Source of the DNA: Maribellus sediminis
GTDB lineage: Bacteria > Bacteroidota > Bacteroidia > Bacteroidales > Prolixibacteraceae
DNA: 64,000 nucleotides
Reading direction: 5' to 3'
Assembly: GCF_011799805.1 (NCBI RefSeq)
Contig: NZ_WXUB01000002.1
Coordinates: 124,001-188,000, forward strand
In this document: positions 5,307 through 53,331 of the stretch, piece after piece
How the letters are laid out: each line of letters begins with the position of its first letter
How positions within the stretch are numbered: the stretch's first letter is position 1
The notes under the pieces: model-generated
What the model was told of the DNA's origin: nothing
Database searches by the model: none
What the model saw: only the letters and a program-made list of their open reading frames with translations
Position numbers and translations under genes: made by a program

Positions 5307-5414
5307 ACTTAAAAAACTATGAAACGAGCGAATGGTGATTTTATCAAAAAGAATGATGGATTTATTTTAAGCGAGTTACATGAGTTACCGTTGAAAACTA
5401 AAAAAAATAAACGA

Positions 5415-6992
5415 ATGAAATTCATTAAATATATAATACTGAGTTGTACAGTTCTGATCTTTTCACAATGTACAGACTTAACGGAGGTGCCTTATACGTT
5501 TTTATCGCCAAATAACTATTACAACAATGCTGATGAGCTCGGTACAGCTCTAACAGGTGTTTACGATGGGTACCGCGATGCTTTTGATGGTTATAACAAG
5601 TACGTTATGTACCTTGAAGTTTTAACTGAGTTTGGTTCGCCCGCCTATGCAAAAGATAACATGCATCTTTGGAACGTATGGAGCGATATGAACAACGCCG
5701 ATAAAATGGTAATTACCAATTGGGATAATGCATATGATGTGATTAACCGGGCAAACCTGGTTATCGGTCGTGGCGAAGATGTTGAAATGGATGAAACGCT
5801 GAAAGCAAGATTCTTTGCAGAGGCGCGTTTTATCAGAGCAGCTACCTATTTTAATTTGGTTCGCCTGTGGGGCGGAGTACCAATTCCAGAAACATACACC
5901 GAAGGTCTTGAAGGCCTCGAGATTCCAAGAGAATCGTTTGACGCAACTTACGAATACATCATCAAAGATTTGGAGTATTGTATTCAGAATTTACCCAAAA
6001 AATCGGAATATGACGCAACAGATATCTGGAGAGCATCAAAAGGCGCCGCTCAGTCGCTTCTTGGTGACGTTTACCTTACCTATGCCGATATGAGTGGGGA
6101 TGCGACGTATTACGCAAAATCAAGAGATGTTTTAAGTGATGTGATTAGTTCAGGTGAATATGAGTTGGAGCCGGATTTTAAAGATTTATGGTTTTGGTGG
6201 AATACAAACAATAAAAATGGGATTGAATCGGTTTTTGAACTTCAGTTTGCAAACCTAAGCGGCCAGCACAATAATAACCATGTAATGTTTGGTGTAAATA
6301 TCACCGAATATACTTTGGGTTGTTATATGTATCGCCGCTTCCATCCATCAATCCAGCATTACCTCACTTACAGCGATACCGATGCACGAAAAGAAGGTAC
6401 CTTCCTTACCAAATTCAATACTACAGAAAAAGGAAATCCAAGTCATATTCTGGATACTTTGGTGTGGCTTCCCGAAGACAAAGGTTTTTACCCGGGAACT
6501 CGTGGATGGAAAAGTGCCGGCCCTGGTAACGTTAAGTTTTACGACCGAACTCCTGAATCTGCAACCTTGAAAAGGCCTCAGGCTCAGATGTATGTAATTC
6601 GTTATGCCGATGTGTTGCTGAACTATGCTGAAGCTGAAAATCACGTAAACGGAGGTCCGAATGCAGCTGCTTATGATGCCATTAATGCGGTGCGCAACCG
6701 GGCTAATCTCGACGATCTTCCCACAGGATTGTCACAACAGGAATTTGCGGATGCTATCTTCCGTGAACAAGGCTGGGAATTGGTTGGTGAGGCCAAGTTG
6801 TATTACGATGAAATTCGTACCGATCGTATTGGAGAGAATGTGAAAAAACACGTACAGTATGGTAACGACGAGGGGATTTATATGTATGTGGAAACTCCTC
6901 TGGAAATGATTCCTTCGAAAGACTTCTTATTTAAAATTCCACAGTACGATTTTGATTCAAATCCGGCACTGGTACAAAACCCGGATAACTAG
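5415..6992 (+). CDS. SusD/RagB-family outer membrane glycan-binding lipoprotein
   Basis: About 525 residues, the surface lid partner of the SusC encoded just upstream. The ATG at 5415 is chosen because it begins a clean lipoprotein signal peptide (MKFIKYIILSCTVLIFSQC, lipid-bearing Cys near residue 19); an in-frame ATG at 5319 would add 32 charged residues before it. SusD hallmarks include the N-terminal NYYNNADELGTALTGVY region, the TPR-like stretch ARFIRAATYFNLVRLWGGVP, and the C-terminal RYADVLLNYAEAENH and FREQGWELVGE motifs. A rho-independent terminator follows 34 bases after the stop, so sigma/FecR/SusC/SusD look like one regulatory unit apart from the downstream enzymes. Confidence 0.95.
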   Translation: MKFIKYIILSCTVLIFSQCTDLTEVPYTFLSPNNYYNNADELGTALTGVYDGYRDAFDGYNKYVMYLEVLTEFGSPAYAKDNMHLWNVWSDMNNADKMVITNWDNAYDVINRANLVIGRGEDVEMDETLKARFFAEARFIRAATYFNLVRLWGGVPIPETYTEGLEGLEIPRESFDATYEYIIKDLEYCIQNLPKKSEYDATDIWRASKGAAQSLLGDVYLTYADMSGDATYYAKSRDVLSDVISSGEYELEPDFKDLWFWWNTNNKNGIESVFELQFANLSGQHNNNHVMFGVNITEYTLGCYMYRRFHPSIQHYLTYSDTDARKEGTFLTKFNTTEKGNPSHILDTLVWLPEDKGFYPGTRGWKSAGPGNVKFYDRTPESATLKRPQAQMYVIRYADVLLNYAEAENHVNGGPNAAAYDAINAVRNRANLDDLPTGLSQQEFADAIFREQGWELVGEAKLYYDEIRTDRIGENVKKHVQYGNDEGIYMYVETPLEMIPSKDFLFKIPQYDFDSNPALVQNPDN

Positions 6993-35726: not shown

Positions 35727-38700
35727 ATGAGGACCATAATTCCATATCTTTTTTTGTTTCTGATTCTTATCTTCAGTGGCTGTAAAAACGGACATCAAAG
35801 TCCGGAAGAATTTCAACCTTTAGGGAAGGTAGATGATGCCAAACCCTGGGTGTACTGGTTTCTGACAGACGCAAGCATTTCAAAAAAAGGAATCACTAGA
35901 GATTTGGAGGCGATGAAAGAAAACGGGATCGGTGGAGCCTTTCTATTTACCATTCGCGGAGCAGCCGAGCCTTCGTTGTACGAGCCGGTTGCCGTGCAGC
36001 TAACGCCTGAGTGGTGGGATATGATGAAGTTTGCGGTAAGCGAGGCCAACCGCTTGGGAGTAAAGCTTGGAATTCACGCCTGCGACGGATTTACAGCTGC
36101 CGGCGGTCCGTGGATCGCGCCCGAACTTTCGATGCAAAAAGTGGTATGGGCCGATACGATCGTGGTTGGAGGGCAACATTTTGAGGGGCAGCTTCCACAA
36201 CCTGAGAGAATGGAAAATTATTACGAGGATATTGCCACATTTGCCTATCCTGCTCCGGCAGGAAGTGGTGTTTCATCCTATAAACTAAAACCCACAATTA
36301 CAACGAGTATTCCCGGTAAAGACGCTTCTTTTTTAGCTAAAAAAGGAAATACCGAAAACTTTTCGAGTCGGGAAAAATGCTGGATACAGTATCAATTCGA
36401 CGAGCCTTTTGCCTGTCGTTCGATTACCCTGCAGTCGGGCTGGAATAACTACCAGGCCAATCGCCTGATCGTAGAAACAAGTAATGACGGTTCAAATTTC
36501 ACGCGTCACGGCCGACTGGAAGCATACCGTCATGGTTGGGACGATCGTGGTGTTACAGTTACACACTTGATTGAACCCGTTGACGCAAAATATTTTCGTT
36601 TTGTTTTCGATCCCGAGGGAACTGAGCCGGGTGCTGAAGATTTGGATGATGCCAAGTGGCGACCGCGTCTAAGGATTTCAGGCATTGAATTATCGGGTGA
36701 AGCAAAGATTCACCAGTACGAAGGGAAGTCAGGGGCAGTTTGGCGCATCAGTAAGTCAACTAATGAGGATTATTTGCAGGAATCGGTTTGTATTGATCCT
36801 GAAGAAATGATTGATATAAGTTACAAACTCGGAACGGATGGAAAACTGTCGTGGGATGTTCCCGAAGGCCGGTGGGTGATTCTTCGCATGGGGCACACTT
36901 CAACTGGAGCAACCAATTACATTGGCGGAGGTGGTGTTGGCCTGGAAGCCGACAAATTAAATCCGGAAGCGGTGAAAGTACAGTTCGAAAACTGGTTCGA
37001 TTCCATATACAATCACATGGGGGATTTGGCCGAAAGTACGATTGAAGAATTGTATAACGACAGCTGGGAATGCGGTAGCCAGAACTGGTCGCCGGTTTTG
37101 CTCAACGAGTTTAAACAACGTCGTGGATATGATTTAGGTCCGTACCTGCCTGCATTGGCCGGAGTTCCTCTGAGAAATACACATTTTTCGGAACAGGTTT
37201 TACACGATGTGCGCACAACAATTGCCGAAGTACTCGTGGACAATTACCACGGAACCATGAAAAAGCTGGCACACGAAAAAGGTGTTCTTTACAGTTCCGA
37301 AAGTGTGGCTCCGGTTTTTGTAAGCGATGGGATGTTGCATTTTAAAAATACAGATGCACCAACCGGCGAGTTCTGGTTTCGCAGCCCCTCGCACGATAAA
37401 CCCAACGATATTTTAGATGCCGTTTCAGGTGCCCATATTTATGGCAAGAAACTGGTGCGTGCTGAGGCCGGAACTGAAATCCGCCTCGATTGGGACGAGC
37501 ATCCCGAAATGCTAAAAACGCTTTTCGACCGTAATTTTGCGATAGGCGTCAATAAAATGATCTTTCATGTTTTTGTACACGATCCCTGGACCGATCAGTT
37601 GCCCGGAAAAACACTTGGAGTGGTGGGAACTTTTTTTCAGCCCAACCAAACCTGGTGGAAGCCCGGTAAAACATGGATTAATTACATTGAAAATTGTCAA
37701 ACTCAATTGCAGCAAGGAATTCCAGTTGCTGATATTGCCGTTTTTACCGGTGAAGAAATTCCCCGGCGGGCTGTTTTACCCGACCGACTGGTGCCTGTTC
37801 TTCCCGGAATATTTGGTAAAGAGAAAGTACGCGCGGAACAGCAGCGGCTTGAAAATGTTGGTCAGCCTTACCGCCAGTTGCCTAAAGGTGTAACTACTTT
37901 AGAAAATCTGGCCGATCCTGTCGACTGGGTAGATCCTCTAAATGGATATTCGTATGATTCCTTTAATAAGGATGCCTTGTTAAATCTGGCTTCGGTACAA
38001 GATGGAAAGATCGTATTGCCGGGCGGAGCAAGTTATTCTTTGTTTGTGGTTCCCGGCGAACGCCGGATGAATCCTAACGGAGGAATGAGCCTTGATGTTG
38101 TTCAAAAACTTTTCAGTTTGGTTAAGGACGGAGCCATGATTTATTTCCAGGAAAAGCCTGCCAAGTTCTTAGGCGCTGAAGAAGATGAGTTGGTTTTTGA
38201 AAAAGTAACAAACGAATTATTCGCGGAGGAAAATAGTACAACGATTTCGGAAAACCTGCGTAGTCATAAAATTGGAAAAGGGCAGGTTCTGATAGGTAAA
38301 TTCGATTTGCCGTCGTTTGCTCCCCTGGATATTGAAAAAGACTTTTTCGCGCTTGAAAACAAGAAACCGGCAGAAAAACTGGCATGGATTCATCGCACTG
38401 ATGGTGAAAAAGAGATTTATTTTATCGCCAATCAAAAAAACGAACGACGTGATGTTGAGCTCTCCTTCAGAGTTGATGGAAAGGTTCCGGAGTTTTATTT
38501 TCCTGTCAGTGGAGAAACAAGATCCTGCAAAGACCGCCGCATCGAAAACGGCAGAACAATAATTCCATTTCAGTTTGAAAGTAATGAATCAGTTTTTGTG
38601 CTTTTTGAAGAAGGGATTGTTGATTCTGAAGTAACGGGAGCGAAAAATAATCCGGAGTTTGTACAACAGCTAATACTGGATATCGATTGGCTGGTTGAAT

Positions 38701-39140
38701 TCGATAAAGCACTGGGAGGGCCGGAAAGTCCGGTGGCACTTCAGCAACTAAGCGACTGGAGCAAAAATAAAGACGAAAAAATAAAGTATTATTCAGGCAC
38801 GGCTGTTTACCGGAAATCGTTTGAGTGGAGCGGTAACATTGAAAATGCCTTCCTCGATGTGGGAGAAGTATACAATCTGGCTGAAGTAACGATTAATGGA
38901 ATAAACTGCGGCGTTGCATGGACGGCACCTTATCGTGTGGATATTTCAAAAGCAATTAAAGAAGGTACCAACCAACTCGAAATTGCCGTAACAAATACCT
39001 GGGCAAACCGCTTGATAGGCGATCATGAGCTGCCGGAAGAAGACCGAATTACATGGACAACCTGCGCGTATCGTTTGGAAGGAAATGAATTGTTGCCGGC
39101 CGGTATGATGGGGCCGGTGAGAATCCTTGTAGAAAAATAG
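35727..39140 (+). CDS. GH106-family alpha-L-rhamnosidase lipoprotein
   Basis: A 1137-residue lipoprotein (LFLILIFSGC). It has the GH106 start: DDAKPWVYWFLTDASISKKG, ITRDLEAMKENGIGGAFLF, the barrel segment LGIHACDGFTAAGGPWI and IEELYNDSWECGSQNWSP, and at the end a galactose-binding-like domain (FLDVGEVYNLAEVTINGINC). Length matches the family. Known members remove alpha-L-rhamnose from rhamnogalacturonan side chains, arabinogalactan or plant glycosides. The partner rhamnose carrier and mutarotase lie upstream in the same run. A discoidin-like insert (about 215-330) may bind carbohydrate. Confidence 0.88.
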   Translation: MRTIIPYLFLFLILIFSGCKNGHQSPEEFQPLGKVDDAKPWVYWFLTDASISKKGITRDLEAMKENGIGGAFLFTIRGAAEPSLYEPVAVQLTPEWWDMMKFAVSEANRLGVKLGIHACDGFTAAGGPWIAPELSMQKVVWADTIVVGGQHFEGQLPQPERMENYYEDIATFAYPAPAGSGVSSYKLKPTITTSIPGKDASFLAKKGNTENFSSREKCWIQYQFDEPFACRSITLQSGWNNYQANRLIVETSNDGSNFTRHGRLEAYRHGWDDRGVTVTHLIEPVDAKYFRFVFDPEGTEPGAEDLDDAKWRPRLRISGIELSGEAKIHQYEGKSGAVWRISKSTNEDYLQESVCIDPEEMIDISYKLGTDGKLSWDVPEGRWVILRMGHTSTGATNYIGGGGVGLEADKLNPEAVKVQFENWFDSIYNHMGDLAESTIEELYNDSWECGSQNWSPVLLNEFKQRRGYDLGPYLPALAGVPLRNTHFSEQVLHDVRTTIAEVLVDNYHGTMKKLAHEKGVLYSSESVAPVFVSDGMLHFKNTDAPTGEFWFRSPSHDKPNDILDAVSGAHIYGKKLVRAEAGTEIRLDWDEHPEMLKTLFDRNFAIGVNKMIFHVFVHDPWTDQLPGKTLGVVGTFFQPNQTWWKPGKTWINYIENCQTQLQQGIPVADIAVFTGEEIPRRAVLPDRLVPVLPGIFGKEKVRAEQQRLENVGQPYRQLPKGVTTLENLADPVDWVDPLNGYSYDSFNKDALLNLASVQDGKIVLPGGASYSLFVVPGERRMNPNGGMSLDVVQKLFSLVKDGAMIYFQEKPAKFLGAEEDELVFEKVTNELFAEENSTTISENLRSHKIGKGQVLIGKFDLPSFAPLDIEKDFFALENKKPAEKLAWIHRTDGEKEIYFIANQKNERRDVELSFRVDGKVPEFYFPVSGETRSCKDRRIENGRTIIPFQFESNESVFVLFEEGIVDSEVTGAKNNPEFVQQLILDIDWLVEFDKALGGPESPVALQQLSDWSKNKDEKIKYYSGTAVYRKSFEWSGNIENAFLDVGEVYNLAEVTINGINCGVAWTAPYRVDISKAIKEGTNQLEIAVTNTWANRLIGDHELPEEDRITWTTCAYRLEGNELLPAGMMGPVRILVEK

Positions 39141-39176: not shown

Positions 39177-40625
39177 ATGAAAGTAATGAATACGGAATTA
39201 AAAAGAACAAGTGTAGCGTTTATGCTACTTGTTTTTTTGATGAGTGGATTAACTGCAAATGCCAAAGTAAAACTTCCGGCGCTTTTTGCCGACCACATGG
39301 TGTTGCAACAACAGACTAAAGTTGCTGTGTGGGGATGGAGTGAGGCAAGAGCTACGGTTGAAGTAAGTGGTTCGTGGAACAACGAAAGTGTAAGTACAAA
39401 AGCCGATAAAGACGGGAAATGGAAACTGATGCTTCAAACACCTGAAGCAGGCGGACCTTATCAATTGTCAGTTAGCGATGGAGAAGTCATAACATTAGAA
39501 AATGTAATGATCGGCGAAGTATGGATTTGTTCCGGGCAGTCGAATATGGAAATGCCTATGAAGGGTTTTCAGGGGCAACCCGTAAAAGGATCAAATATGG
39601 ACATCTTGAAGTCTGAAGATCATACTATCCGGATGATCACTGTTCCCCGTAATGCGCAAACCACACCGCAGGATAATTTTGAAGCAAAATGGAAAGAGGC
39701 GGATGCGGCGGCGGTACGAAATTTCAGCGCCACCGGTTATTATTTTGGCAAATTATTGAATGAGATGCTCGATGTTCCAATTGGTTTGATCGAGGTGAGT
39801 TGGGGCGGTTCCTGTATTCAGGCCTGGATGAGCAAAGAAACTTCTACGGCTTTCGAAGACAAGGAAATTCCGGCACCCGGCGATTCCATATTGGTTGAAA
39901 ACCGGACTCCGACCGTACTATTTAACGGCATGCTGAATCCGGTTATCGCTTATGGAATAAAAGGTTGTATCTGGTACCAAGGCGAAACCAATTACCAGGA
40001 ACCCGATCGTTACCTGGAGTTGTTTCCGAAAATGGTGAAAGAGTGGCGAAATTTATGGGGCATCGGAGACTTCCCGTTTTATTACGCCCAGATAGCACCT
40101 TTCGATTATTCGGTTTTTACTCCCGATGAACCGCTTGAAAAATACAACTCAGCTTTTTTACGTGAAGCGCAGTTAAAGGCTATGGACATCATTCCAAATA
40201 GCGGCATGGCAGTGTTGATGGATGTTGGTGAAGAAACTAATATTCACCCGATGCGGAAAAAAGAAGGAGGCGAACGATTGGCGCTCTGGGCTCTTGCAAA
40301 AACTTACGGATTTCGCGATTTTAGCTATCAAAGTCCTGGCTATTACGCGATTGAAATTAAAGGAAGCCAGGTAATCGTGTCGTTTAAAAATGTAGCGAAC
40401 GGATTAACCACTTTTGGAAAAGAACTAATGGGATTTGAGATTGCAGGCGAAAACAAGGTATTTTATCCTGCCACTGCTTTTCTGCGCTCCAAATCAGTGA
40501 TTTTATCTTCTCCGCGAGTTGAAAAACCGGTGGCTGTGCGCTACTGCTTTAAGGATTATGCTTTCGGAAACTTGTTTGCAACCGACGGTTTGCCGGTTTC
40601 ATCATTTCGTTCGGATGATTGGTAA
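39177..40625 (+). CDS. Sialate O-acetylesterase-type (SASA family) carbohydrate acetylesterase
   Basis: A 482-residue SGNH-fold esterase with a signal peptide (LLVFLMSGLTANA). The catalytic Ser is S122 in CSGQSNMEMP; KGCIWYQGETNYQEP is the oxyanion/glycan region; the Asp-His part is DVGEETNIHPMRKKEGG. N-terminal KLPALFADHMVLQQ is the standard family opening. A purine-rich Shine-Dalgarno-like stretch precedes the ATG. In pectin loci such esterases strip acetyl groups from rhamnogalacturonan or other sugars so that hydrolases can act; that role is inferred from neighbours. Confidence 0.9.
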   Translation: MKVMNTELKRTSVAFMLLVFLMSGLTANAKVKLPALFADHMVLQQQTKVAVWGWSEARATVEVSGSWNNESVSTKADKDGKWKLMLQTPEAGGPYQLSVSDGEVITLENVMIGEVWICSGQSNMEMPMKGFQGQPVKGSNMDILKSEDHTIRMITVPRNAQTTPQDNFEAKWKEADAAAVRNFSATGYYFGKLLNEMLDVPIGLIEVSWGGSCIQAWMSKETSTAFEDKEIPAPGDSILVENRTPTVLFNGMLNPVIAYGIKGCIWYQGETNYQEPDRYLELFPKMVKEWRNLWGIGDFPFYYAQIAPFDYSVFTPDEPLEKYNSAFLREAQLKAMDIIPNSGMAVLMDVGEETNIHPMRKKEGGERLALWALAKTYGFRDFSYQSPGYYAIEIKGSQVIVSFKNVANGLTTFGKELMGFEIAGENKVFYPATAFLRSKSVILSSPRVEKPVAVRYCFKDYAFGNLFATDGLPVSSFRSDDW

Positions 40626-40639
40626 TTTTAATGAATTGC

Positions 40640-42955
40640 ATGAAAAATATTCTGTACATATTATTTCTGATTATTCCCGCAGTCTCGGCTGGACAAACCT
40701 TATTACCTGAAAATTACAATGTGGTTTGGAACAGTCAGAGTACCAACTCATCGGAATCGATGCCATGTGGTGGTGGCGATATAGGCCTGAATGTTTGGGT
40801 GGAAAACGGAGATCTGCTCTTCTACATGGCACGGAGCGGCACTTTCGATGAGAACAATACCATGCCAAAGCTGGGGCGGGTGCGCATTCAGTGCGATCCC
40901 AATCCCTTTGTTGGAGCAACTTTCCGGCAAGAACTTCAGCTCGAAAAAGGAAGTGTACTGATTTCAGCCGAAAAAGAGGGAACTAAAACTCAGTTCGAAA
41001 TTTGGGTCGATGTTTTTAATCCGATTATTCATGTTGAGGTGGAAAGCGATAAGGCTATCGATTTTCAAGCTTCATACGAAAGCTGGCGGTATGAAGACCG
41101 CAAGCTCCGCAAATTTGAAAGTTTTCAGAATTCCTACAAATGGGCACTATCCGAAGGCCTGCTTACAAGAAAGGATGAAATCTATTTTGACGGGGACGCA
41201 GTACTGTTTTATCACCGAAACCAAGGAGAAACAATTTTTGATGCCACGGTAAATCAGCAAAAACTAAATTCCGTTAAAGACAGCCTTTTTAATCCGCTTG
41301 AAAAACTCACTTTTGGTGGATTGATGTGGGGCGAGAATCTTGTTCAGGGTGAAACATCCGAAGGAAAATACCAGCAAACAGCATTTAAAAGCTGGAGGCT
41401 GAAAAGTAAAAAAGCAGCTAAGAAATACCATCTGAAAATTGCCTTAAATACAGGACAATTCGATGGTGTGGATGAATGGAAAGCTGAATTGGAAAATCGT
41501 ATTCAGAAAGAGAATAAGCAAAAAAGTACACGAAAGTTGACGTTGGACTGGTGGCGGGATTACTGGCAACGAAGTTTTGTTTTAATTCAACCTGAAAATA
41601 CTGATTACAGCAATCCTTCCTGGCAAGCAGGGCGCAATTATCAGTTGTTTCGTTACATGCTGGGTTGCAATGCTTACGGGAAATATCCCACAAAGTTCAA
41701 CGGAGGATTGTTCACGGTTGATCCAATTTTCACCAACGATGAACGGCCTTTTACTCCAGATTTCAGGAATTGGGGTGGCGGTACTTTTACTGCACAGAAT
41801 CAGCGCCTAATATATTTCCCAATGTTGGCATCAGGCGATTTCGACATGATGAAACCACAACTGGACTTTTACCTGAGGATTTTAAGAAATGCTGAGCTGC
41901 GAAGCCGGTGTTACTGGGATCATGATGGTGCTTGTTTTACCGAGCAGATTGAAAATTTTGGCCTGCCAAATCCCAGTGAATACGGCTGGAAACGACCAGA
42001 AAATTACGACCCTGGAATGATGTACAACGCCTGGCTCGAATACCAGTGGGATACTTCGCTTGAAATTTGCTGGATGGTTTTGCAATTAAACAAATACCAG
42101 AGGGCAGATATTTCTGACTACTTGCCATTGATTGAAAGTTGCCTGACCTTTTTCGATGAGCATTACCAATATCTGGCGAAACAACGGGGCACAAAAGCTC
42201 TCGATGAGAACGGAGATTTGATATTGTACCCGGGATCGGCCTGCGAAACCTACAAAATGGCTTACAATGCCACTTCAACAGTTGTTGCGTTGTATAAGGT
42301 TACCGAAGGACTTCTTCAACTAGCGGAATACTATCCTCAGGAAATTGATAGCGAGAAATGGCAAGCTTTCCTGGAAAGAATTCCGCCATTTGCTTTTCGT
42401 CAGTTTGGAGATAAGGTAACCATTGCACCGGCAAAATTATGGGAGCGCATAAATAATACGGAGGCGCCGCAACTGTACCCCGTTTATCCCTGGGGGATTT
42501 ATGGAGTTGGAAAGCCGGGTTTGGACATTGCACAAAACACCTACCTCTACGATCAGGATATCATCAAATTCCAGGATCACCAAAGCTGGAAGCAGTACAA
42601 TATTTTTGCTGCCCGGCTCGGATTGACAGAAGAAGCTGTAAAATATACTTTGCTGAAAATGAAGGATTCCGGCCGTCGTTTTCCGGCATTCTGGGGACCA
42701 GGTTTCGACTGGGTGCCTGACCATAATTGGGGTGGATCGGGAATGATCGGAGTTCAGGAGATGTTACTGCAAACCAACGGCGATAAAATTTACCTTTTCC
42801 CGGCCTGGCCGAAAGAATGGAATGTGCATTTTAAATTGCATGCTCCCGGAAATACAAGTGTTGAAGCAGAATTGAAAGATGGTATGGTAAATATTATTGA
42901 TGTTCAGCCTGAAACACGGAAAACAGATATTGAAATCCTATTGAAACAAAATTAG
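40640..42955 (+). CDS. DUF5703-type secreted glycoside hydrolase-like protein
   Basis: About 771 residues. The ATG at 40640 is used because it starts a signal peptide (ILYILFLIIPAVSAGQ); an earlier TTG start overlaps the esterase gene. The N-terminal half (SESMPCGGGDIGLNVWVENG, LLFYMARSGTFDENN) matches what I recall of DUF5703. The C-terminal half (NYQLFRYMLGCNAYGKYPTK, FNGGLFTVDP, later YPVYPWGIYG and WGPGFDWVPDHNWGGSGM) looks like an (alpha/alpha)6 barrel of the GH95/GH63 kind. No activity is assigned here. The stop is one base from the RuBisCO-like gene. Confidence 0.75.
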   Translation: MKNILYILFLIIPAVSAGQTLLPENYNVVWNSQSTNSSESMPCGGGDIGLNVWVENGDLLFYMARSGTFDENNTMPKLGRVRIQCDPNPFVGATFRQELQLEKGSVLISAEKEGTKTQFEIWVDVFNPIIHVEVESDKAIDFQASYESWRYEDRKLRKFESFQNSYKWALSEGLLTRKDEIYFDGDAVLFYHRNQGETIFDATVNQQKLNSVKDSLFNPLEKLTFGGLMWGENLVQGETSEGKYQQTAFKSWRLKSKKAAKKYHLKIALNTGQFDGVDEWKAELENRIQKENKQKSTRKLTLDWWRDYWQRSFVLIQPENTDYSNPSWQAGRNYQLFRYMLGCNAYGKYPTKFNGGLFTVDPIFTNDERPFTPDFRNWGGGTFTAQNQRLIYFPMLASGDFDMMKPQLDFYLRILRNAELRSRCYWDHDGACFTEQIENFGLPNPSEYGWKRPENYDPGMMYNAWLEYQWDTSLEICWMVLQLNKYQRADISDYLPLIESCLTFFDEHYQYLAKQRGTKALDENGDLILYPGSACETYKMAYNATSTVVALYKVTEGLLQLAEYYPQEIDSEKWQAFLERIPPFAFRQFGDKVTIAPAKLWERINNTEAPQLYPVYPWGIYGVGKPGLDIAQNTYLYDQDIIKFQDHQSWKQYNIFAARLGLTEEAVKYTLLKMKDSGRRFPAFWGPGFDWVPDHNWGGSGMIGVQEMLLQTNGDKIYLFPAWPKEWNVHFKLHAPGNTSVEAELKDGMVNIIDVQPETRKTDIEILLKQN

Positions 42956-42956
42956 C

Positions 42957-44198
42957 ATGGAACGAATTATTGCGACATATTTGATTGAAACGCCACATGA
43001 TGTGGAAAAAGCTGCTGCGGTGCTGGCCGGCGAACAGTCGAGCGGAACTTTTGTGGCTGTTCCCGGCGAAACCGATGAACTAAAATCGCGGTTTGCTGCG
43101 CGAGTAGAAGAGATTAAAATTCTGGGAGATGTTACTGAACCAAGCATGCCCGGCGATGATCTGGGATTTAAAACCTATCATCGGGCAAAAGTAAAAGTGT
43201 CGTGGTCGCTCGAGAATTTTGGCTACAATATTCCGGCATTGGTCTCCACGGTTCAGGGAAATTTATACGAATTGCGCCAGTTTACAGGTTTGAAATTGGA
43301 TGACCTGGAACTGCCTGCTTCTTATGCAAAACATTTTCGGGGACCCACTTATGGCATGCGCGGAACTAAAGAGTTGGCGGGAGTGGGATCGGAACGACCA
43401 ATGATAGGAACCATCATAAAACCCAGCGTTGGACTGACTCCCGAATATACAGCCGACCTGGTAAAAACATTGGTAGAAGCCGGAATTGACTTTGTGAAAG
43501 ACGATGAGCTGATGACTTCAACGGTCAACTCGCCTTTTGAAGTTCGGCTCGAAAAAATAATGAAATTAATAAATACCTATGCCGACAAAACCGGTAAAAA
43601 AGTGATGTATGCTTTTAACATTACTGGCGATCTTGATACCATGAAAACCAACTACGAGAAGATCGTAAAAGCCGGGGGAACCTCTGCCATGCTTAGCATT
43701 AACAGTGTTGGTTGGACCGGGGTAAAAGAAGTTTGCAGTTGGGGGGAGTTATCCATTCATGGTCACCGAAACGGATGGGGAATGATCAACCGCCACCCTT
43801 TGCTGGGAATCAATTTTCCGGCATACAATAAATTATGGCGATTAGCCGGAGTGGATCAGATGCATGTAAACGGCATTCAAAATAAATTTTGGGAATCAGA
43901 CGATTCGGTGGTACGATCAATAAAATCCTGTCACAAGCCCTTTTTAAACAATGAAGCTGTTTTGCCGGTGGTTTCATCGGGGCAGTGGGGCGGACAGGCC
44001 TTTGAAACCTGGCAACGAACAAAAACCACCGATTTATTGTACATGGCCGGTGGTGGAATAATGGCACATCCTTCGGGACCTGCAGGCGGAGTGAAAGCCC
44101 TGCACCAGGCCTGGCAGGCTGCAGTTGATGGACTTTCGCTGGAACAAGCCGCGAAAAAGTTCAAGGAGTTTGGCGAATCAGTGGAAAAATTTGGGTAG
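42957..44198 (+). CDS. RuBisCO-like protein (form IV-type)
   Basis: A 413-residue cytoplasmic protein of the RuBisCO large-subunit superfamily. Matches to spinach RuBisCO numbering, judged by eye: N102 (123), K155 (175, in TIIKPSVGL), K181, D183, E184 (201, 203, 204, in VKDDEL, the carbamate and magnesium ligands), H270-R271 (294-295), H303 (327), K310 (334) and S340 (379). Lys177 is replaced by Ser and the 380 Gly by Ser, and loop 6 is different (QNKFWESDD), so it is not a CO2-fixing enzyme. Known relatives decarboxylate or split 3-oxo-isoapionate 4-phosphate in apiose catabolism (OiaX, OiaT). The acid-sugar kinase gene starts seven bases later, fitting a phosphorylate-then-cleave pathway. 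Substrate is unproven. Confidence 0.92.
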   Translation: MERIIATYLIETPHDVEKAAAVLAGEQSSGTFVAVPGETDELKSRFAARVEEIKILGDVTEPSMPGDDLGFKTYHRAKVKVSWSLENFGYNIPALVSTVQGNLYELRQFTGLKLDDLELPASYAKHFRGPTYGMRGTKELAGVGSERPMIGTIIKPSVGLTPEYTADLVKTLVEAGIDFVKDDELMTSTVNSPFEVRLEKIMKLINTYADKTGKKVMYAFNITGDLDTMKTNYEKIVKAGGTSAMLSINSVGWTGVKEVCSWGELSIHGHRNGWGMINRHPLLGINFPAYNKLWRLAGVDQMHVNGIQNKFWESDDSVVRSIKSCHKPFLNNEAVLPVVSSGQWGGQAFETWQRTKTTDLLYMAGGGIMAHPSGPAGGVKALHQAWQAAVDGLSLEQAAKKFKEFGESVEKFG

Positions 44199-44204
44199 TG
44201 AATA

Positions 44205-45596
44205 ATGGCAGAGAATAACAAGATACAACTGGCTTTTTACGGCGACGATTTTACGGGATCGACTGATGCGCTGGAGTTTTTGACCCGGGCCGGACTTAGG
44301 ACGGTTTTGTTTTTGGATAATCCAAGTTCGGAACAAATAGAACGTTTCGGAAATCCTGCAGCGATTGGTGTTGCGGGAATGACCCGCGCTATGATTCCAT
44401 TTGAAATGAAACAAGCGCTTGCAAAGGCTTTTACCGAATTGAAAAAGTTAAATCCGCGCCACGTTCATTACAAAGTGTGTTCAACTTTCGATTCATCGCC
44501 GGAAATTGGCAACATTGGAATGGCCATCGAAACCGGTCAGGAAATATTCAAAAATGATTTCACGCCGGTGTTGGTAGCGGCACCTCACCTGGGGCGTTAT
44601 TCGGCCTTTGGAAATCTGTTTGCAAGAATGGGAATTGGTAGCCAGGGAAAGATTTTCCGCCTCGACCGGCATCCTTCAATGTGTGCACACCCTGTAACGC
44701 CGGCCACTGAAAGTGATTTGCAGGTTCATTTAGGGCGCCAAACGCAGCTTCCTATCGGATTGATTGATCTTGTAGATTTGCAAAGCCCGGTCGAGGAAAT
44801 TCAGCAAAAAATTGAGCAAGAGCTTTCAACCGGCAAGCGAATTCTTTTTTTCGATGGTATATACGAATCACAAATGGCCAAAATCGGAGAAGTGCTCGAC
44901 CGGCAGGTATTTGAAGAGCGGCCACTTTTTTCGGTAGGATCATCGGGAATTGAAAAAGCCCTGGGTGATTATTGGGCTGAAGAAAATCGCTGTCAGCCGC
45001 GACAAACCTGGGATGAATTAGTAGTAAGCAGTCCGCTGATGGTGCTTTCGGGGAGTGTTTCTCCGGTAACAGCAGAGCAGATTAACCGCGCAGTGGAACA
45101 TGGATTTGAGGAAATTGCGGTTGATGCGATGAGCCTGGATGTGGATGATCCTGAATCGTTTATTAATGGATATCAGCAAAAAATCGTTTCGTGCTTTAAA
45201 AATGGGAAAAGTGTTATTTTGCACACTTCAAAAGGCCCTGATGATGTGCGTGTTAAGCAAATAAGTGAGCTGCTTAAAAGAAAAGGCTGGGACGAACAAA
45301 ACCGACGCATTGAAACTGCCAAACGCTTTGGAAAAATCCTTGGGCAATCTGCACGGAGAGCTTTGGAAGAGTTTCCGGTGAAACGCATGGTTATTGCCGG
45401 AGGCGATACATCGGGTTATGTGGCGCGTGAACTGGGCATTGAAGCCGTGGAAATGATCGCACCTGTATTTCCGGGAGCGCCGGTGTGCAGGGCTTTTGCA
45501 AGTGCCTCGCCGGTTGATGGTTTGGAAGTGAATCTGAAAGGCGGACAGGTTGGAGATGCGAATTATTTTATAAAGATTAAAAACGGGAAAATTTAA
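44205..45596 (+). CDS. Four-carbon acid sugar kinase family protein (DUF1537; OiaK/OtnK-like)
   Basis: A 463-residue cytoplasmic kinase. The N-terminal substrate domain opens with FYGDDFTGSTDALEFLTRAG; the C-terminal ATP domain has MVLSGSVSPVTAEQINRA, AGGDTSGYVARELGIEAV and LKGGQVGDANYF. The family phosphorylates acid sugars such as erythronate, threonate and 3-oxo-isoapionate. Its pairing with a RuBisCO-like protein points to the last of these or to a related branched beta-keto acid, but the steps that would make 3-oxo-isoapionate (apionate oxidoisomerase, lactonase) are not in the window. The racemase-fold gene follows after five bases. Confidence 0.9.
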   Translation: MAENNKIQLAFYGDDFTGSTDALEFLTRAGLRTVLFLDNPSSEQIERFGNPAAIGVAGMTRAMIPFEMKQALAKAFTELKKLNPRHVHYKVCSTFDSSPEIGNIGMAIETGQEIFKNDFTPVLVAAPHLGRYSAFGNLFARMGIGSQGKIFRLDRHPSMCAHPVTPATESDLQVHLGRQTQLPIGLIDLVDLQSPVEEIQQKIEQELSTGKRILFFDGIYESQMAKIGEVLDRQVFEERPLFSVGSSGIEKALGDYWAEENRCQPRQTWDELVVSSPLMVLSGSVSPVTAEQINRAVEHGFEEIAVDAMSLDVDDPESFINGYQQKIVSCFKNGKSVILHTSKGPDDVRVKQISELLKRKGWDEQNRRIETAKRFGKILGQSARRALEEFPVKRMVIAGGDTSGYVARELGIEAVEMIAPVFPGAPVCRAFASASPVDGLEVNLKGGQVGDANYFIKIKNGKI

Positions 45597-45601
45597 ATAC
45601 T

Positions 45602-46264
45602 ATGACTAAAACATTGGGATTGATACATACTTCGGCGACACTGGTTCCCGTATTTCAGGAACTGACAGATAAATACTTAGCCGGGAAAGACATCAAGGTT
45701 TTTAATATTGCAGATGATAGTCTGATCAAAAATACAATCGAACGTGGAAAACTCACACCCGATACTTCACGCAGGGTAGTGGGGCATGTTGCCTCCGCCG
45801 AAGAAGCAGGGGCCGATTATATTTTGGTTACCTGCTCTTCCATCGGACCTGCAGTGGAAATGGCTGCAAACCTTGTGAAAATACCAGTTTTGCGGGTCGA
45901 TCAACCCATGGCCGACAAAGCCGTGCAGATGGGTAAAAAGATTGGCGTGGTAGCAACCTTGTCAACAACTTTGGAACCTACAAGCGATTTGGTGCGTCGT
46001 CGTGCGATTGTTGCAGGAAAAGACATTGAGCTGACTTCAAAACTTTGCGAAGGTGCATTCGATGCGCTCATGGGAGGGAAACCGGAGATTCACGACGAAA
46101 AGGTGGCTGCTGCATTAAAAGAATTGTCGCAGGAAGTGGATGTGATCCTGTTAGCACAGGCATCGATGGCACGTGTTGTTGATCAGCTTTCGGAAGAAGA
46201 TAAAAAAGTTCCTATCATTACCAGCCCCGAATTGGCGGTTCAATACCTTGCGGAGGTGCTGTAA
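45602..46264 (+). CDS. Asp/Glu/hydantoin racemase-fold protein with a single canonical active-site cysteine
   Basis: A 220-residue cytoplasmic protein. It matches the Asp/Glu racemase superfamily (LGLIHTSATLVPVFQEL, DYILVTCSSIGPAVEMA, VGVVATLSTTLEPTSD-like, VILLAQASMARVVDQL). The first catalytic Cys is C78 (TCSS); at the place of the second (usually GC followed by T/A) the sequence reads AQAS (A185-S188), so two-base racemisation is doubtful. Single-Cys members of the fold include decarboxylases. Its stop and the next start share a base (TAATG), so it is coupled to the carrier gene. Role: possibly an epimerase, isomerase or decarboxylase acting on the acid sugar of this module. Confidence 0.82.
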   Translation: MTKTLGLIHTSATLVPVFQELTDKYLAGKDIKVFNIADDSLIKNTIERGKLTPDTSRRVVGHVASAEEAGADYILVTCSSIGPAVEMAANLVKIPVLRVDQPMADKAVQMGKKIGVVATLSTTLEPTSDLVRRRAIVAGKDIELTSKLCEGAFDALMGGKPEIHDEKVAAALKELSQEVDVILLAQASMARVVDQLSEEDKKVPIITSPELAVQYLAEVL

Positions 46265-47559
46265 TGAAACAAAAGCTTCAAAGACTTGCGCTTTGGATCG
46301 GACTGACGGCACTTGCACTGTTGCTGTTTTCGCTGGTGCTCAAATATCATCAGGCGTCACAGGTACTGGCAGTGATAGCTTCCGTAGGAATTGCGTTTGG
46401 TTTGGCATCGGTTCATTCATTCCGTTCCTACCAGTACACAGCCTGGATTATTGTAGCTATTGTTTGTGGCATGATCTATCCCTCAGCCTTTCTTCACTGG
46501 GGCAACTTCGATCTCCGCAATAAATGGATGATCATGTTCATCGTGCAGCTGGTAATGTTCGGTATGGGAACACAAATGAGTTTTCGCGATTTTACCCACA
46601 TCAAAACTATGGGCAAAGGCGTTTTTGTCGGAATTTTGAGTCAGTTTACCATTATGCCGATTGTGGGATTTACGCTCACAAAAATATTCAATTTTGAACC
46701 TGAAATTGCCGCCGGAATTATCCTGATCGGCTCCTGTTCAAGCGGACTGGCATCGAATGTGATGGTTTACCTGGCAAGAGCAAATCTTACTTTGTCGGTG
46801 ACCTTGACTTCTGTAGCCACTTTACTGGCGCCGGTTATGACGCCGTTCTGGATGAAGGTTCTGGCCGGAACCTATGTGGAGGTGAAATTCTGGGCTATGT
46901 TTGTGCAGATCATCGAGATTGTTATTGTTCCCATAGGTGCTGCCATGTTATACGACGTTTTCAAATCGGGTTCAAAAAAATGGATAAACAGGATCAATCT
47001 TGTCCTGGTCGTTTCAGTTTTGTGGTTGATGGCATTGATTTTTGGATTCTGGCCAGTACTTGAAACGCGTTTTGGAAACACCGGGATGAAGGTTTTTGAA
47101 TTGGTATCTTTTTTTGCAGGAGCCTTTATTGTCGGGAAATTGTATTACTTGGCAACCCGGTACTGGGGAAAGATCAAAGATTTTATGCCCAAACTTTCAA
47201 TGTTTGGCATCGTATATTTTACGGTGGTTACAACAGCAGCCAGCCGCGAGAATATCCTTTCCATTGGTTTGCTGATGTTGCTGGCATCGATCATGCACAA
47301 TTCACTGGGTTATACTTTTGGCTACGGAATCAGTCGTTTGCTGGGACTCGATAAAAATTCGTGCCGAACTGTGGCGCTTGAAGTCGGTCTGCAAAACGGA
47401 GGAATGGCATCGGGGCTGGCTGGGGTGATGGGCAAACTGGCAACCCTTGGACTGGCAGCTGCGGTTTTCAGCCCCTGGATGAATATTTCAGGATCTGTAC
47501 TAGGAAATTACTGGCGGAAGAAATCCGAACGATTTGAGAAAATTAATAGTCAAGAATGA
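46264..47559 (+). CDS. Bile acid:sodium symporter (BASS/SBF) family transporter
   Basis: A 431-residue inner-membrane protein with about nine or ten hydrophobic segments. Family motifs: MFIVQLVMFGMGTQMSFRDF, GILSQFTIMPIVGFTLTKIF, GIILIGSCSSGLASNVMVYL and ARANLTLSVTLTSVATLLAP, and VALEVGLQNGGMASGLAGVM. Family members carry organic acids, including pyruvate, pantoate and bile acids, with sodium. Here it closes the RuBisCO-like/kinase/racemase-fold set by overlapping coding (TAATG before, ATGA after), so an acid-sugar substrate is the simplest guess. The N-terminal extension with two extra hydrophobic segments is longer than in short BASS members. Confidence 0.87.
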   Translation: MKQKLQRLALWIGLTALALLLFSLVLKYHQASQVLAVIASVGIAFGLASVHSFRSYQYTAWIIVAIVCGMIYPSAFLHWGNFDLRNKWMIMFIVQLVMFGMGTQMSFRDFTHIKTMGKGVFVGILSQFTIMPIVGFTLTKIFNFEPEIAAGIILIGSCSSGLASNVMVYLARANLTLSVTLTSVATLLAPVMTPFWMKVLAGTYVEVKFWAMFVQIIEIVIVPIGAAMLYDVFKSGSKKWINRINLVLVVSVLWLMALIFGFWPVLETRFGNTGMKVFELVSFFAGAFIVGKLYYLATRYWGKIKDFMPKLSMFGIVYFTVVTTAASRENILSIGLLMLLASIMHNSLGYTFGYGISRLLGLDKNSCRTVALEVGLQNGGMASGLAGVMGKLATLGLAAAVFSPWMNISGSVLGNYWRKKSERFEKINSQE

Positions 47560-50351
47560 TGAAAAACGCTGTTTTAATCCATAGTGTTGTTTTGATATTT
47601 GTTCTGCTTTCCTGCCGGAGCAATGCTGATTTTCAAGTTACTGAAGCCAGTGTTAATAATGCTATCGTAGCTACAGGAGTTGATCCTTCGTCATTCTTTT
47701 TTAGCTGGAAGCTGGCTTCTTCAGAAAAAAAAGTAGTACAAACCGCTTATCAGATTCAGGTATCTGAACAAAACAACTTTGCCAATCAGGTTTGGGATTC
47801 AGGGAAGATCCGAAGCGAGAAAAGTATTTTGGTCGATTATGCAGGAATGGAACTTCACCCCGGACAAACGTATTTTTGGCGGGTAAAAACCTGGGATAAT
47901 TACGGAAATGAAACTTCGTGGAGCATGATAAAAACCTTTACTACCGGAATTTTTGCAAAAAGTGATTGGAGCGGAGCACAATGGATTGCTTACGATAAAC
48001 TGCCGGAAGAAAAGAGGATAGTTCCCGGTATTCACCTTCCCGGGAAATCATGGAGAGGGAAAGATCAGGGATCGCATAAACTGCCGCTTTTGCGCAAGGA
48101 ATTCGAAGTGAAGGAAGGACTGAAACAGGCGTTGGTTTTTGTTTCGGGAATGGGACATTACGAAATGCATTTGAATGGCGAAAAGGTGGGCGATCGCTTT
48201 CTTTCGCCCGGCTGGACCAATTACGATGAAACCATTTTGTACAATACCTTCGATTGTACCGACCTGCTAAAGACTGGTAAAAATGCGGTTGGAATACTGC
48301 TTGGGAACGGCTTTTTCATTATTCCCAACGAGCGCTACCGGAAAACCATGACAGCCTATGGAAATCCCATGATGATCATGAAACTGAAGTTGGTTTACGA
48401 GGATGGCAGTGAGGCAGAAATCGTTTCCGACGAAAGCTGGAGAACCGTTCCGGGCCCGATAACATTTTCGAGTATTTTTGGCGGCGAGAATTACGATGCC
48501 CGGCTTGAACAAGCAGGTTGGGACCAACCGGAATTTGATGAGGTGAACTGGCAGAAAGCGATTGTTGTGGAGCCGACAACTGATGAATTGCATCCCGAAA
48601 CCGATTACCCGGTGAAACTCACACAGGAACTGAAGCCACAAAAGATCACCAAAATTGAGAACTCCAATAACTCCTGGCTGTATGATTTCGGTCAAAATGC
48701 ATCGGGAATTTTTGAATTAACAGTCAAAGGAAATGCAGGAGACACAGTGGTTCTAACCCCGGCAGAACTGATTTTTGAAGACGGTAAAGTCAATCAGCGT
48801 GCTACCGGAAGGCCACACTATTACACCTATGTTTTGAAAGGAGATGGCGAAGAAGCCTGGCGTCCGCGATTCTCGTTTTACGGCTTGCGTTACATACAGG
48901 TTGATGGTGCTGTGCCTGCCTCTGAAAATGGGGAATCCAATGTGCCGGAGATTGTCAGCCTGAAAATGTTACATAATCGAAACGCTTCACCAGAAACGGG
49001 CAGTTTTCATACCTCGTTCGAGCTTTTTAATCAAATTTATACGCTTATAAAATGGGCTATAGAAAGTAACTTCCAAAGTGTGTTGACCGATTGTCCGCAC
49101 CGCGAAAAGCTGGGCTGGTTGGAACAGAGTTTCCTTATGGGCGGCAGCGTTCACTATAATTTTGATATCTACCATCTTTATTGCAAGATTGTAGACGATA
49201 TGATTGAGGCACAAACAGCGAACGGGCTGGTTCCGACCATTGCGCCTGAATATGTGCTTTTCGATTTTGCCAATGGCGATTTTCGCGATTCACCCGAATG
49301 GGGAAGTGCAGCGGTGATCCTTCCCTGGCTAATCTGCAAATGGTACGGCGATTTGGAGCCGATGAAAAAAGCCTGGCCAATGATGGAACGCTATGTGGCA
49401 TACCTGGAAAGTCGGTCTGAAAATCATATTCTTGATCATGGTTTGGGCGATTGGTACGATCTTGGGCCCGAACGTCCCGGTTTTCCGCAACTCACCCCGC
49501 GAGCACTTACCGCAACTGCCATTTATTTCTACGATGTAAAACTGATGTCGGAAATGGCTGCTTTAATTGGAAAGCAGGATGAAGTAAAGCATTTAACTGA
49601 CCTGGCTTCCGAAATAAAAAACGCATTCAACGCTACTTTTTTCAATCCGGAAACAAAGATCTATTCCACCGGAAGCCAAACGGCTATTGCCATGCCTTTG
49701 GTAGTGGGCCTGGTAAATGAAAATGATCACGATGCAGTGGTGAAGACGCTCGTTGAATCGATACAAAACTCGGGAAAAGCGCTAACTGCAGGAGATATCG
49801 GTTTAAATTACCTGGTAAAAGCTTTGCAAAATAACGGACTAGGTGAACTGCTTTTTGAAATGAATGCCCGCGACGATGTTCCGGGATATGGTTTTCAACT
49901 GAAAAAAGGAGCTACAGCGCTTACCGAATCGTGGCCCGCGCTGGAGGTGGTTTCGAACAACCACTTAATGTTGGGGCACTTAATGGAATGGTTTTACAAT
50001 GGCTTGGGAGGAATCGGTCAGACCGAAGAATCAGTGGCATATAAAGAAGTTAAGATCGAACCACAAGTAGTTGGCGGTATCGCCAAAACCAGTGCAAGTT
50101 TTGAGTCGCCTTACGGGACGATACGCTCCGTATGGCAGGATGCTGAAGCTACATTTGAACTCGATATTGAGATTCCGGTGAATACCACCGCAATTATCGT
50201 GTTACCGGCCAAGAATACGGATCAGGTTTTTGAAAGCGGAAAGTCATTATCTGACAAACCAGGTATTGAATTCATCAATCAGACTGATGGCGAAATTTTG
50301 CTTCGTACGGGTTCCGGACAATATTCTTTTGAGGTCGTAAAGAACAGATAA
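47556..50351 (+). CDS. GH78-family alpha-L-rhamnosidase lipoprotein
   Basis: A 931-residue lipoprotein (LIFVLLSC). Domain order is the family standard: fibronectin-like (PSSFFFSWKLASSEKKVVQT, QTYFWRVKTWDNYG), N-terminal sandwich (FVSGMGHYEMHLNGEKVGDR, LSPGWTNYDETILYNTFD), a second sandwich (GQNASGIFELTVKG), then the (alpha/alpha)6 catalytic barrel with LTDCPHREKLGWLEQS (candidate acid E517) and TALTESWPALEVVSNNHLML. Enzymes of this family release alpha-L-rhamnose. It overlaps the BASS gene by four bases and ends the 43-kb run. The following 251 bases hold only a hairpin for the opposite-strand operon. Confidence 0.93.
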   Translation: MMKNAVLIHSVVLIFVLLSCRSNADFQVTEASVNNAIVATGVDPSSFFFSWKLASSEKKVVQTAYQIQVSEQNNFANQVWDSGKIRSEKSILVDYAGMELHPGQTYFWRVKTWDNYGNETSWSMIKTFTTGIFAKSDWSGAQWIAYDKLPEEKRIVPGIHLPGKSWRGKDQGSHKLPLLRKEFEVKEGLKQALVFVSGMGHYEMHLNGEKVGDRFLSPGWTNYDETILYNTFDCTDLLKTGKNAVGILLGNGFFIIPNERYRKTMTAYGNPMMIMKLKLVYEDGSEAEIVSDESWRTVPGPITFSSIFGGENYDARLEQAGWDQPEFDEVNWQKAIVVEPTTDELHPETDYPVKLTQELKPQKITKIENSNNSWLYDFGQNASGIFELTVKGNAGDTVVLTPAELIFEDGKVNQRATGRPHYYTYVLKGDGEEAWRPRFSFYGLRYIQVDGAVPASENGESNVPEIVSLKMLHNRNASPETGSFHTSFELFNQIYTLIKWAIESNFQSVLTDCPHREKLGWLEQSFLMGGSVHYNFDIYHLYCKIVDDMIEAQTANGLVPTIAPEYVLFDFANGDFRDSPEWGSAAVILPWLICKWYGDLEPMKKAWPMMERYVAYLESRSENHILDHGLGDWYDLGPERPGFPQLTPRALTATAIYFYDVKLMSEMAALIGKQDEVKHLTDLASEIKNAFNATFFNPETKIYSTGSQTAIAMPLVVGLVNENDHDAVVKTLVESIQNSGKALTAGDIGLNYLVKALQNNGLGELLFEMNARDDVPGYGFQLKKGATALTESWPALEVVSNNHLMLGHLMEWFYNGLGGIGQTEESVAYKEVKIEPQVVGGIAKTSASFESPYGTIRSVWQDAEATFELDIEIPVNTTAIIVLPAKNTDQVFESGKSLSDKPGIEFINQTDGEILLRTGSGQYSFEVVKNR

Positions 50352-53323: not shown

Positions 53324-53331
53324 TATAGCTT

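Follow-up and report, generated by a model that had tools for sequence, protein, structure and literature searches.

Which acid sugar is handled by a RuBisCO-like protein (RLP) that is encoded among genes for pectin degradation? This question is raised by a 64,000-nucleotide stretch of the Maribellus sediminis genome, called here the window (C6:124001-188000 of the 5.6 Mb genome, G000), in which genes for an RLP, an acid-sugar kinase, a racemase-fold protein and a BASS-family carrier follow one another. The initial annotation of this stretch had read the four genes as one coupled run and had weighed D-apiose as the substrate against a novel variant or another acid sugar. The latter turned out to be the better of the two readings. 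Gene association and chemistry indicate that L-aceric acid, a sugar of rhamnogalacturonan II (RG-II), is probably the substrate of the kinase and the RLP. As a whole, the earlier interpretation is partly supported: aceric acid should replace apiose as the substrate. The module consists of these genes:

42957..44198, + strand: RLP, 413 amino acids (aa), Pfam RuBisCO_large, 212.6 bits
44205..45596, + strand: DUF1537-type acid-sugar kinase, 463 aa, Pfam SBD_N/NBD_C
45602..46264, + strand: Asp/Glu-racemase-fold protein, 220 aa, Pfam Asp_Glu_race
46264..47559, + strand: BASS-family carrier, 431 aa, Pfam SBF

The four-gene module and its distribution

The observation of an RLP, kinase, racemase-fold and BASS module is confirmed: the four open reading frames (ORFs) form one coupled run at 42957-47559, as had been proposed, and their Pfam domains agree with the assignment. 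Regarding the spacing, the five bases between the kinase and racemase-fold genes and the one-base overlap of the latter with the BASS gene (TAATG) were read off the sequence as earlier given, while the gap between the RLP and kinase genes is six bases instead of seven. The coupled run extends beyond the four genes, to a DUF5703 gene on the 5' side and a glycoside hydrolase (GH) family 78 gene on the 3' side.

A close RLP (67-70% identity) was found in five of the 395 genomes of a class sample, and in eight genomes in total when a phylum sample was included; the 79 other genomes matching in the phylum search carried distant RLPs only (30% identity or less). In all eight Bacteroidota genomes with a close RLP the four genes stand together, in the same order and on one strand. 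In addition, at least 552 RLP relatives were obtained by scanning named genomes, and the best 80 of them were taken; the 61 loci with full flanks were used for the neighbourhood counts (19 of the 80 were dropped). Genes in these loci were called from ORFs and by tblastn, which added one RLP and one racemase-fold gene. The eight genomes and the named loci overlap in at least three cases (L090 = G080, L097 = G065 and L124 = G630). This neighbourhood survey, which the initial annotation had suggested, showed all four genes in 59 of the 61 loci: 53 have the order RLP-kinase-racemase-BASS, in four the last two genes are inverted and in two the pairs are swapped. Since the four genes are kept in all eight genomes and in 59 loci, the module is not a chance arrangement. 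Going by the titles of their records, its hosts are Bacteroidota, plus some Verrucomicrobiota and Planctomycetota. One locus (L110) comes from a metagenome-assembled genome titled Williamsia that has SusC/SusD, so this label looks wrong. Moreover, one module copy is borne by a mobilizable plasmid of Rufibacter tibetensis. In L076 and L096, the place of the kinase directly behind the RLP gene is taken by a pair of ORFs of about 615 and 300 aa that look secreted.

The module RLPs of the window, the 80 named loci and the Rufibacter plasmid, 82 in total, formed one clade (support 0.861, FastTree) in a tree that also held seven proteobacterial relatives and four distant RLPs, and from which no named RLP was dropped. 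In the class sample, the RLP was present in five of the 11 genomes bearing GH138, a marker of the RG-II polymer, and in none of the remaining 384. This restriction to GH138-bearing genomes ties the presence of the module to RG-II.

The substrate of the kinase and the RuBisCO-like protein

The neighbours of the module were analyzed by clustering the ORFs of at least 130 aa from the 61 loci all-vs-all, without naming any target, and the loci were assigned by hand to 37 genus-level groups. After the module itself, the top family was a GH127 of the BT1003 type, present in 31 of the 61 loci and in 23 of the 37 groups, and located immediately upstream on the same strand in 18 loci. The runners-up were a GH130/43-like family (14 loci, 12 groups), which comes next by groups, and DUF5703 (15 loci, nine groups), which comes next by loci. 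The GH127 of genome G300 had PDB entry 5mqo, which we take to be BT1003, as its top match (815 bits; 358 bits for the next GH127). BT1003, 40 GH127 proteins from the loci and the high-scoring members from the class sample formed one clade of 51 tips (support 0.972). Outside it fell 4qjy, on the side of the ordinary GH127 arabinofuranosidases, and four low-scoring GH127 proteins; this tree was built without two fragments among the 42 hits and without two of the 16 GH127 proteins of the class sample. Hence, the GH127 lying by or near the module is of the same type as BT1003 of Bacteroides thetaiotaomicron, an enzyme described as the aceric acid (3-C-carboxy-5-deoxy-L-xylose) hydrolase in PMC10850190 and PMC5698469. 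It would supply the sugar and lies outside the intracellular module.

A GH127 of this type was present in all eight RLP genomes, in each case sharing a contig with the RLP and no more than 55 kb away from it. The distance to the RLP is 60 bases or less in G630 and G080, and in G300 one GH2 gene lies between. In M. sediminis itself the gene (C6:117371-119401) is found about 48 kb from the RLP, just beyond the window edge, and its product falls inside the BT1003 clade, though outside the closest subclade of BT1003. In the class sample, GH138 was found in 11 of the 395 genomes, the BT1003-type GH127 (760 bits or more; four weaker proteins with 493-540 bits were excluded as another type) in 12 and both in 11.

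Concerning the chemistry, L-aceric acid is 3-C-carboxy-5-deoxy-L-xylose, a branched acid sugar of RG-II whose open chain is OHC-CHOH-C(OH)(COOH)-CHOH-CH3. Its 2-ketose, HOCH2-CO-C(OH)(COOH)-CHOH-CH3, is a beta-keto acid. The substrate of the oxidative D-apiose route, 3-oxo-isoapionate, is HOCH2-CO-C(OH)(COOH)-CH2OH, and the aceric acid ketose would thus be its C-methyl homologue, with CH(OH)CH3 in the place of CH2OH. Given this homology, one isomerisation without any oxidation step would make aceric acid fit the chemistry of the kinase OiaK and the RLP OiaX. The D-apiose enzymes ApnO, ApnL and ApsD would be dispensable, since aceric acid already has the branched carboxylate, and this would explain their absence. 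Furthermore, the four jobs required (anion import, isomerisation, phosphorylation and decarboxylation) match the four genes.

The likeness of the kinase and the RLP to OiaK and OiaX, already noticed in the initial annotation, was borne out, as these are the best NCBIfam models of both proteins. The RLP scored 497.6 bits with the OiaX model (NF042437), under its curated cut-off of 700, which the OiaX of R. ruizarguesonis, used as a control, exceeds (779.9 bits). The kinase reached 417.3 bits with the OiaK model (NF042436), whose curated cut-off is also 700. However, this cut-off is strict, because the R. ruizarguesonis kinase paired with the accepted OiaX scores just 477.6 bits. The DUF1537-type enzyme is proposed, by analogy, as the kinase of the aceric acid ketose.

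Alignments, including that with PDB entry 3nwr (375 bits), showed that the RLP keeps the ligands K181, D183 and E184 (K201, D203 and E204 in RuBisCO numbering), as well as H270 (H294), H303 (H327) and the loop-6 lysine K310 (K334). Lys177 is lost, its position being taken by S157 and, in 3nwr, by Asn. These kept and lost residues are as the initial annotation had listed them, and the kept ligands and loop-6 lysine with the lost Lys177 presumably correspond to the feature list of OiaX. A carboxylating RuBisCO was ruled out by S157. An enolase of the MtnW type (2,3-diketo-5-methylthiopentyl-1-phosphate enolase) was ruled out by low model scores (169.2 bits with NF007095, cut-off 409); the enolase-type assignment that had been named as the outcome contrary to the first interpretation was not found, the enolase models staying far under their cut-offs. 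RLPs with decarboxylation and with transcarboxylation/hydrolysis activities are reported in PMC6302742. By analogy, the RLP of the module is proposed to be a decarboxylase (or a transcarboxylase/hydrolase) of the aceric acid ketose 1-phosphate.

The carrier matched Pfam SBF (PF01758) with 111 bits (gathering score 24.3), and its best NCBIfam model was PanS (207.8 bits, under the cut-off of 400). It is proposed as the importer of the acid sugar. A 484-aa protein beside the BASS gene in the Fodinibius genome (G630) was considered as an apiosidase and discarded, as it gave no PDB match at E 0.01.

The proposed pathway and its alternatives

The proposed route would begin with the release of aceric acid by the BT1003-type GH127, and the BASS carrier would then bring in its anion. 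The racemase-fold protein would convert the aldose into the 2-ketose by a one-base proton transfer, a role assigned by elimination. In analogy with OiaK, the kinase would phosphorylate the terminal CH2OH (C1) of the ketose. The RLP, acting like OiaX, would take off CO2 to give a 5-deoxypentulose 1-phosphate, which an aldolase of the rhamnulose-phosphate type may split into dihydroxyacetone phosphate and acetaldehyde. Alternatively, the RLP could act like OiaT and yield 3-phosphoglycerate and lactate, with no aldolase needed. Regarding the aldolase, all eight RLP genomes encode one of class II, in ORFs that are 667-746 aa long, and that of G300, the sole one tested, scored above the cut-off as a bifunctional rhamnulose-1-phosphate aldolase.

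The racemase-fold protein matched PF01177 with 91.7 bits (Pfam gathering score 31). Its AlphaFold2 model (pLDDT 94.9) was most similar to the aspartate racemases 2dx7 and 1jfl, with TM scores of 0.74 and 0.77 normalised by query length. C78 aligned with the N-terminal catalytic cysteine of 1jfl, and the position of the second catalytic cysteine is occupied by A187. The protein had been described as having a single cysteine: C78 is indeed the only conserved one in the window protein and 75 related loci, so that it does not qualify as a two-cysteine racemase, but the window protein also has a non-conserved C149. C78 was the sole invariant cysteine in 30 sequences, nine of them from other settings, and one cysteine is therefore a trait of the subfamily, beyond the module alone. 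In summary, the likeness to the Asp/Glu/hydantoin racemase superfamily (PF01177) lies in the fold and in C78 at the N-terminal catalytic position, whereas A187 at the C-terminal one and the conserved R98, R133, H164 and R191, residues that we take to be untypical of the superfamily, set the protein apart.

The racemase-fold gene was present in all eight RLP genomes and in none of the seven genomes with a BT1003-type GH127 that lack the RLP. In addition, this protein and the RLP are the best conserved of the module (65-73% identity for the racemase-fold protein and 45-50% for the kinase among the eight genomes). Its conservation and co-inheritance with the RLP fit a substrate-specific step. A 1,2-proton transfer requires one base, and, if aceric acid is the right substrate, a one-cysteine aldose-ketose isomerase of this sugar has, by elimination, somewhat better than an even chance of being its identity. 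The full scheme, in which the racemase-fold protein is the isomerase and the module occurs in RG-II degraders from three or more phyla, is a tentative one, a little short of an even chance.

Two plasmids carry distant relatives of this protein beside a 3-oxo-tetronate kinase and an aldolase-family gene, one in Erwinia (L175:560-7934) and one in Pantoea (L177:4607-8742). The aldolase-family gene of the Erwinia locus scored above the cut-off as a 3-oxo-tetronate 4-phosphate decarboxylase. A replacement of the isomerase OtnI by the racemase-fold protein in tetronate loci is compatible with the Erwinia locus, where no OtnI-like gene is listed within 6 kb, and the Pantoea At-9b locus does not fit a plain replacement.

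Several observations weigh against the scheme. Two of the 61 loci depart from the module, one without the kinase and one without all three partners nearby. In the class sample, seven of the 12 genomes with a BT1003-type GH127 have no RLP, so the release of aceric acid does not need the module, and 30 of the 61 loci have no GH127 within 10 kb. As GH127 and GH138 nearly coincide (11 of 12), it is only the adjacency, and not the co-occurrence, that singles out aceric acid. The RhaD model TIGR02624 found nothing in the eight RLP genomes (E 1e-10), and this equivalog was discarded as the downstream aldolase, the long-ORF class II aldolase being found instead. Concerning the apiose-type genes described below, AptA orthologues (at least 65% identity) were present in only three of the eight RLP genomes, so an apiose route elsewhere in the genome is not demonstrated for the other five, and the AplK-like kinase of M. 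sediminis also scores above the cut-off for glycerol kinase. In Pantoea, a homologue of the racemase-fold protein with 29% identity adjoins a 2-oxo-tetronate isomerase-like protein, and the relative is therefore no simple stand-in for such an isomerase there. Finally, we can name no racemase-fold aldose-ketose isomerase.

These points bear on three other explanations. One of them is a variant D-apiose pathway, in which the kinase and the RLP would act on 3-oxo-isoapionate like OiaK and OiaX or OiaT, with unrelated enzymes replacing ApsD, ApnL and ApnO. RG-II contains apiose, OiaX and OiaK are the best models, the AptA orthologue is lacking in five genomes, and the Gfo/Idh gene at 27148-28209, with relatives in 10 of the 61 loci, might replace the dehydrogenase. 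Nevertheless, this pathway is unlikely: both scores stay under cut-offs, whereas the R. ruizarguesonis OiaX exceeds its own, and ApnO, ApnL and ApsD were found in none of the 61 loci (blastp thresholds of 60, 60 and 120 bits), where weaker Gfo/Idh genes occur in 10. ApnO was also found in none of the eight RLP genomes, while the same query matched three of three control records, down to 73% identity. Furthermore, homologues of a transketolase route are encoded upstream of the window (C6:108635-113542), namely AplK (38% identity), AptA (48%) and AptB (40%), together with a FucI-like isomerase, and seven of the 61 loci have an AptA homologue no farther than 10 kb from the module; the reference genes were those of E. 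coli SE15 as given in PMC13001218. Judging from sequence, this isomerase, kinase and transketolase set likely serves apiose. The D-apiose pathway would also leave the BT1003-type GH127 and the acid importer next door unexplained. With ApnO, ApnL and ApsD not found and a separate apiose-type set present, apiose was ruled out as the leading substrate, and this part of the initial annotation did not hold. Another acid of RG-II as the substrate, such as 3-deoxy-D-lyxo-heptulosaric acid (Dha), 3-deoxy-D-manno-octulosonic acid (Kdo) or a breakdown product of uronic acids, is very improbable. Kdo and Dha are also RG-II sugars according to PMC12168206. However, a single isomerisation would turn none of these acids into a branched beta-keto acid, Dha is better matched by another cassette that lies shortly past the downstream end of the window, and the neighbour statistics favour the aceric acid hydrolase.

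The remaining explanation keeps aceric acid as the substrate and concerns the isomerisation, which could be the work of a sugar isomerase from rhamnose or fucose catabolism, the racemase-fold protein acting in a later step, e.g., on the products of C-C cleavage. Relatives of this protein do occur in unrelated settings, since they adjoin FAD-dependent oxidoreductases or a 3-oxo-tetronate kinase. Those by the oxidoreductases, and the one by the 2-oxo-tetronate isomerase-like protein, show that the fold has other jobs as well. Against it stand the inheritance of the gene with the RLP, its higher identity compared with the kinase and the 32 top-ranked neighbour families, among which no sugar isomerase recurs save a secreted TIM-barrel type (7 of the 61 loci). 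This division of roles is less likely, although it is the strongest of the three. Aceric acid thus stays the probable substrate of the kinase and the RLP.

Among known systems, the closest is the OiaK-OiaX pair of oxidative D-apiose degradation. Both have a DUF1537 kinase gene adjoining a form IV RLP gene, with the best model matches between them, and, if the proposal is right, their substrates are of one kind, branched 2-hydroxy-3-oxo acids. The module differs in scoring under both cut-offs and in that ApsD, ApnL and ApnO were not found. Its RLP is 44-47% identical to OiaX-annotated plasmid proteins among the matches listed (40 of 346). Seven proteobacterial plasmid loci, annotated as OiaX or a near relative, hold an RLP and a kinase (the kinase is unlisted in one). 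The apiose-type ones have, wholly or partly, a 6-phosphogluconate dehydrogenase-type gene, a Gfo/Idh gene and a gene for a large hypothetical protein, which we take to be ApnO, ApsD and ApnL, respectively. The module has a racemase-fold and a BASS gene, where the gene tables of these seven loci, which are incomplete, list neither. OiaT, reportedly a 3-oxo-isoapionate-4-phosphate transcarboxylase/hydrolase, is an RLP acting on the substrate of OiaX and could describe the last step of the module equally well. Four loci considered as sources of OiaT (L162-L164 and L167) were set aside in this role, since their records carry no such label. The D-erythronate route (OtnI, OtnK and OtnC) shares the logic of isomerising to a 3-oxo acid, phosphorylating the end and decarboxylating to a ketose phosphate. 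Unlike the module, it acts on a linear C4 acid, with a TIM-barrel isomerase (OtnI) and a decarboxylase of the class II aldolase fold (OtnC).

No plant polysaccharide is more complex than RG-II, and how it is broken down outside the cell has largely been solved. No description of the intracellular fate of freed aceric acid was found in the open-licence literature, nor was any open-licence paper joining RuBisCO-like proteins, rhamnogalacturonan and Bacteroidetes. As far as was found, the module would be a variant of OiaK-OiaX chemistry not described so far. If the proposal is true, the RuBisCO superfamily would gain a further natural reaction, and a small change in OiaK-OiaX chemistry would suffice for a C-methyl homologue. 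It could also reveal a new kind of sugar isomerase, a racemase fold turned into a one-cysteine aldose-ketose isomerase, which to our knowledge would be the first in the racemase superfamily. The proposal makes the fate of aceric acid testable with four proteins.

RLP-kinase pairs were also observed on plasmids of Rhizobium sp. Pop5, Bradyrhizobium elkanii and Sulfitobacter (L162, L163 and L167), with quite different neighbours: an SDR-type reductase and a 2-keto-3-deoxygluconate permease in the first, three aldo/keto reductases, a lactonase-type gene and a TRAP transporter in the second, and a VOC protein and a TRAP transporter in the third. These pairs probably belong to further acid-sugar pathways.

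The surrounding locus

The genes around the module that characterise the locus are the following:

1974..6992, + strand: SusC/SusD pair, two genes, polysaccharide locus
7294..10026, + strand: GH138-type RG-II galacturonidase, marker of the RG-II polymer (match to BPa0997 in the PDB)
35727..39140, + strand: GH106 rhamnosidase of the RG-II locus (ORF and Pfam)
39177..40625, + strand: SASA-type esterase of the RG-II locus (ORF and Pfam)
40619..42955, + strand: DUF5703 protein, stopping one base ahead of the RLP (ORF and Pfam)
47556..50351, + strand: GH78 alpha-L-rhamnosidase, overlapping the BASS gene by four bases in the same gene run (ORF and Pfam)

The product of 7294-10026 had BPa0997 (6hzf/6hze) as its top PDB match, with 1076 bits. 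We take BPa0997 to be the GH138 galacturonidase that acts specifically on RG-II chain A. Because of this match and of the SusC/SusD, GH106, GH78, several GH2 and one GH88 genes, the locus is, by its predicted gene products, of the RG-II type, which agrees with the pectin locus first proposed and is narrower than it. The module had also been placed between rhamnosidase-related genes. This is correct downstream, where GH78 follows; upstream, the DUF5703 and SASA genes come first and only then GH106.

The RG-II locus contains three URO-D-family proteins (window 10038-12226 and 30010-31053), the third of which also matches MtaA/CmuA-type methyltransferase models, and a fourth URO-D-like protein at 26078-27142, similar by eye, with no Pfam match. 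RG-II bears 2-O-methyl sugars, and these proteins might be demethylases. For the Gfo/Idh dehydrogenase and the SSS carrier paired at window 27148-29825, 10 and 12 of the 61 loci have relatives close to the RLP module, and G110 and G300 have relatives with 61-68% identity; the pair possibly serves another RG-II sugar. On the opposite strand, two neighbouring CotH/LTD/CHB_HEX proteins with sorting domains are encoded at window 50603-56127, and a 1044-aa ORF beside GH88 (window 57259-60393) gave no Pfam match at E 0.01. Upstream of the window, an unusual 642-aa ORF (L143:9568-11496, C6:113568-115496) fuses an RbsB-like periplasmic binding domain with a pectate-lyase PelZ-like part.

Past the window end, a cassette at C6:189370-195246 (L144:1370-7246) encodes an iron-containing alcohol dehydrogenase, an aldolase of the dihydrodipicolinate synthase (DHDPS) family, a PdxA-like dehydrogenase, a DUF1537 kinase and an SSS carrier. 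This cassette could degrade the Dha or Kdo of RG-II, with an aldolase cleavage to pyruvate and a tetruronate, a reduction and the threonate route. In the Verrucomicrobiota locus L118, an iron-containing alcohol dehydrogenase, PdxA, a DHDPS-like gene and, by eye, a DUF1537 kinase stand behind the RLP module.

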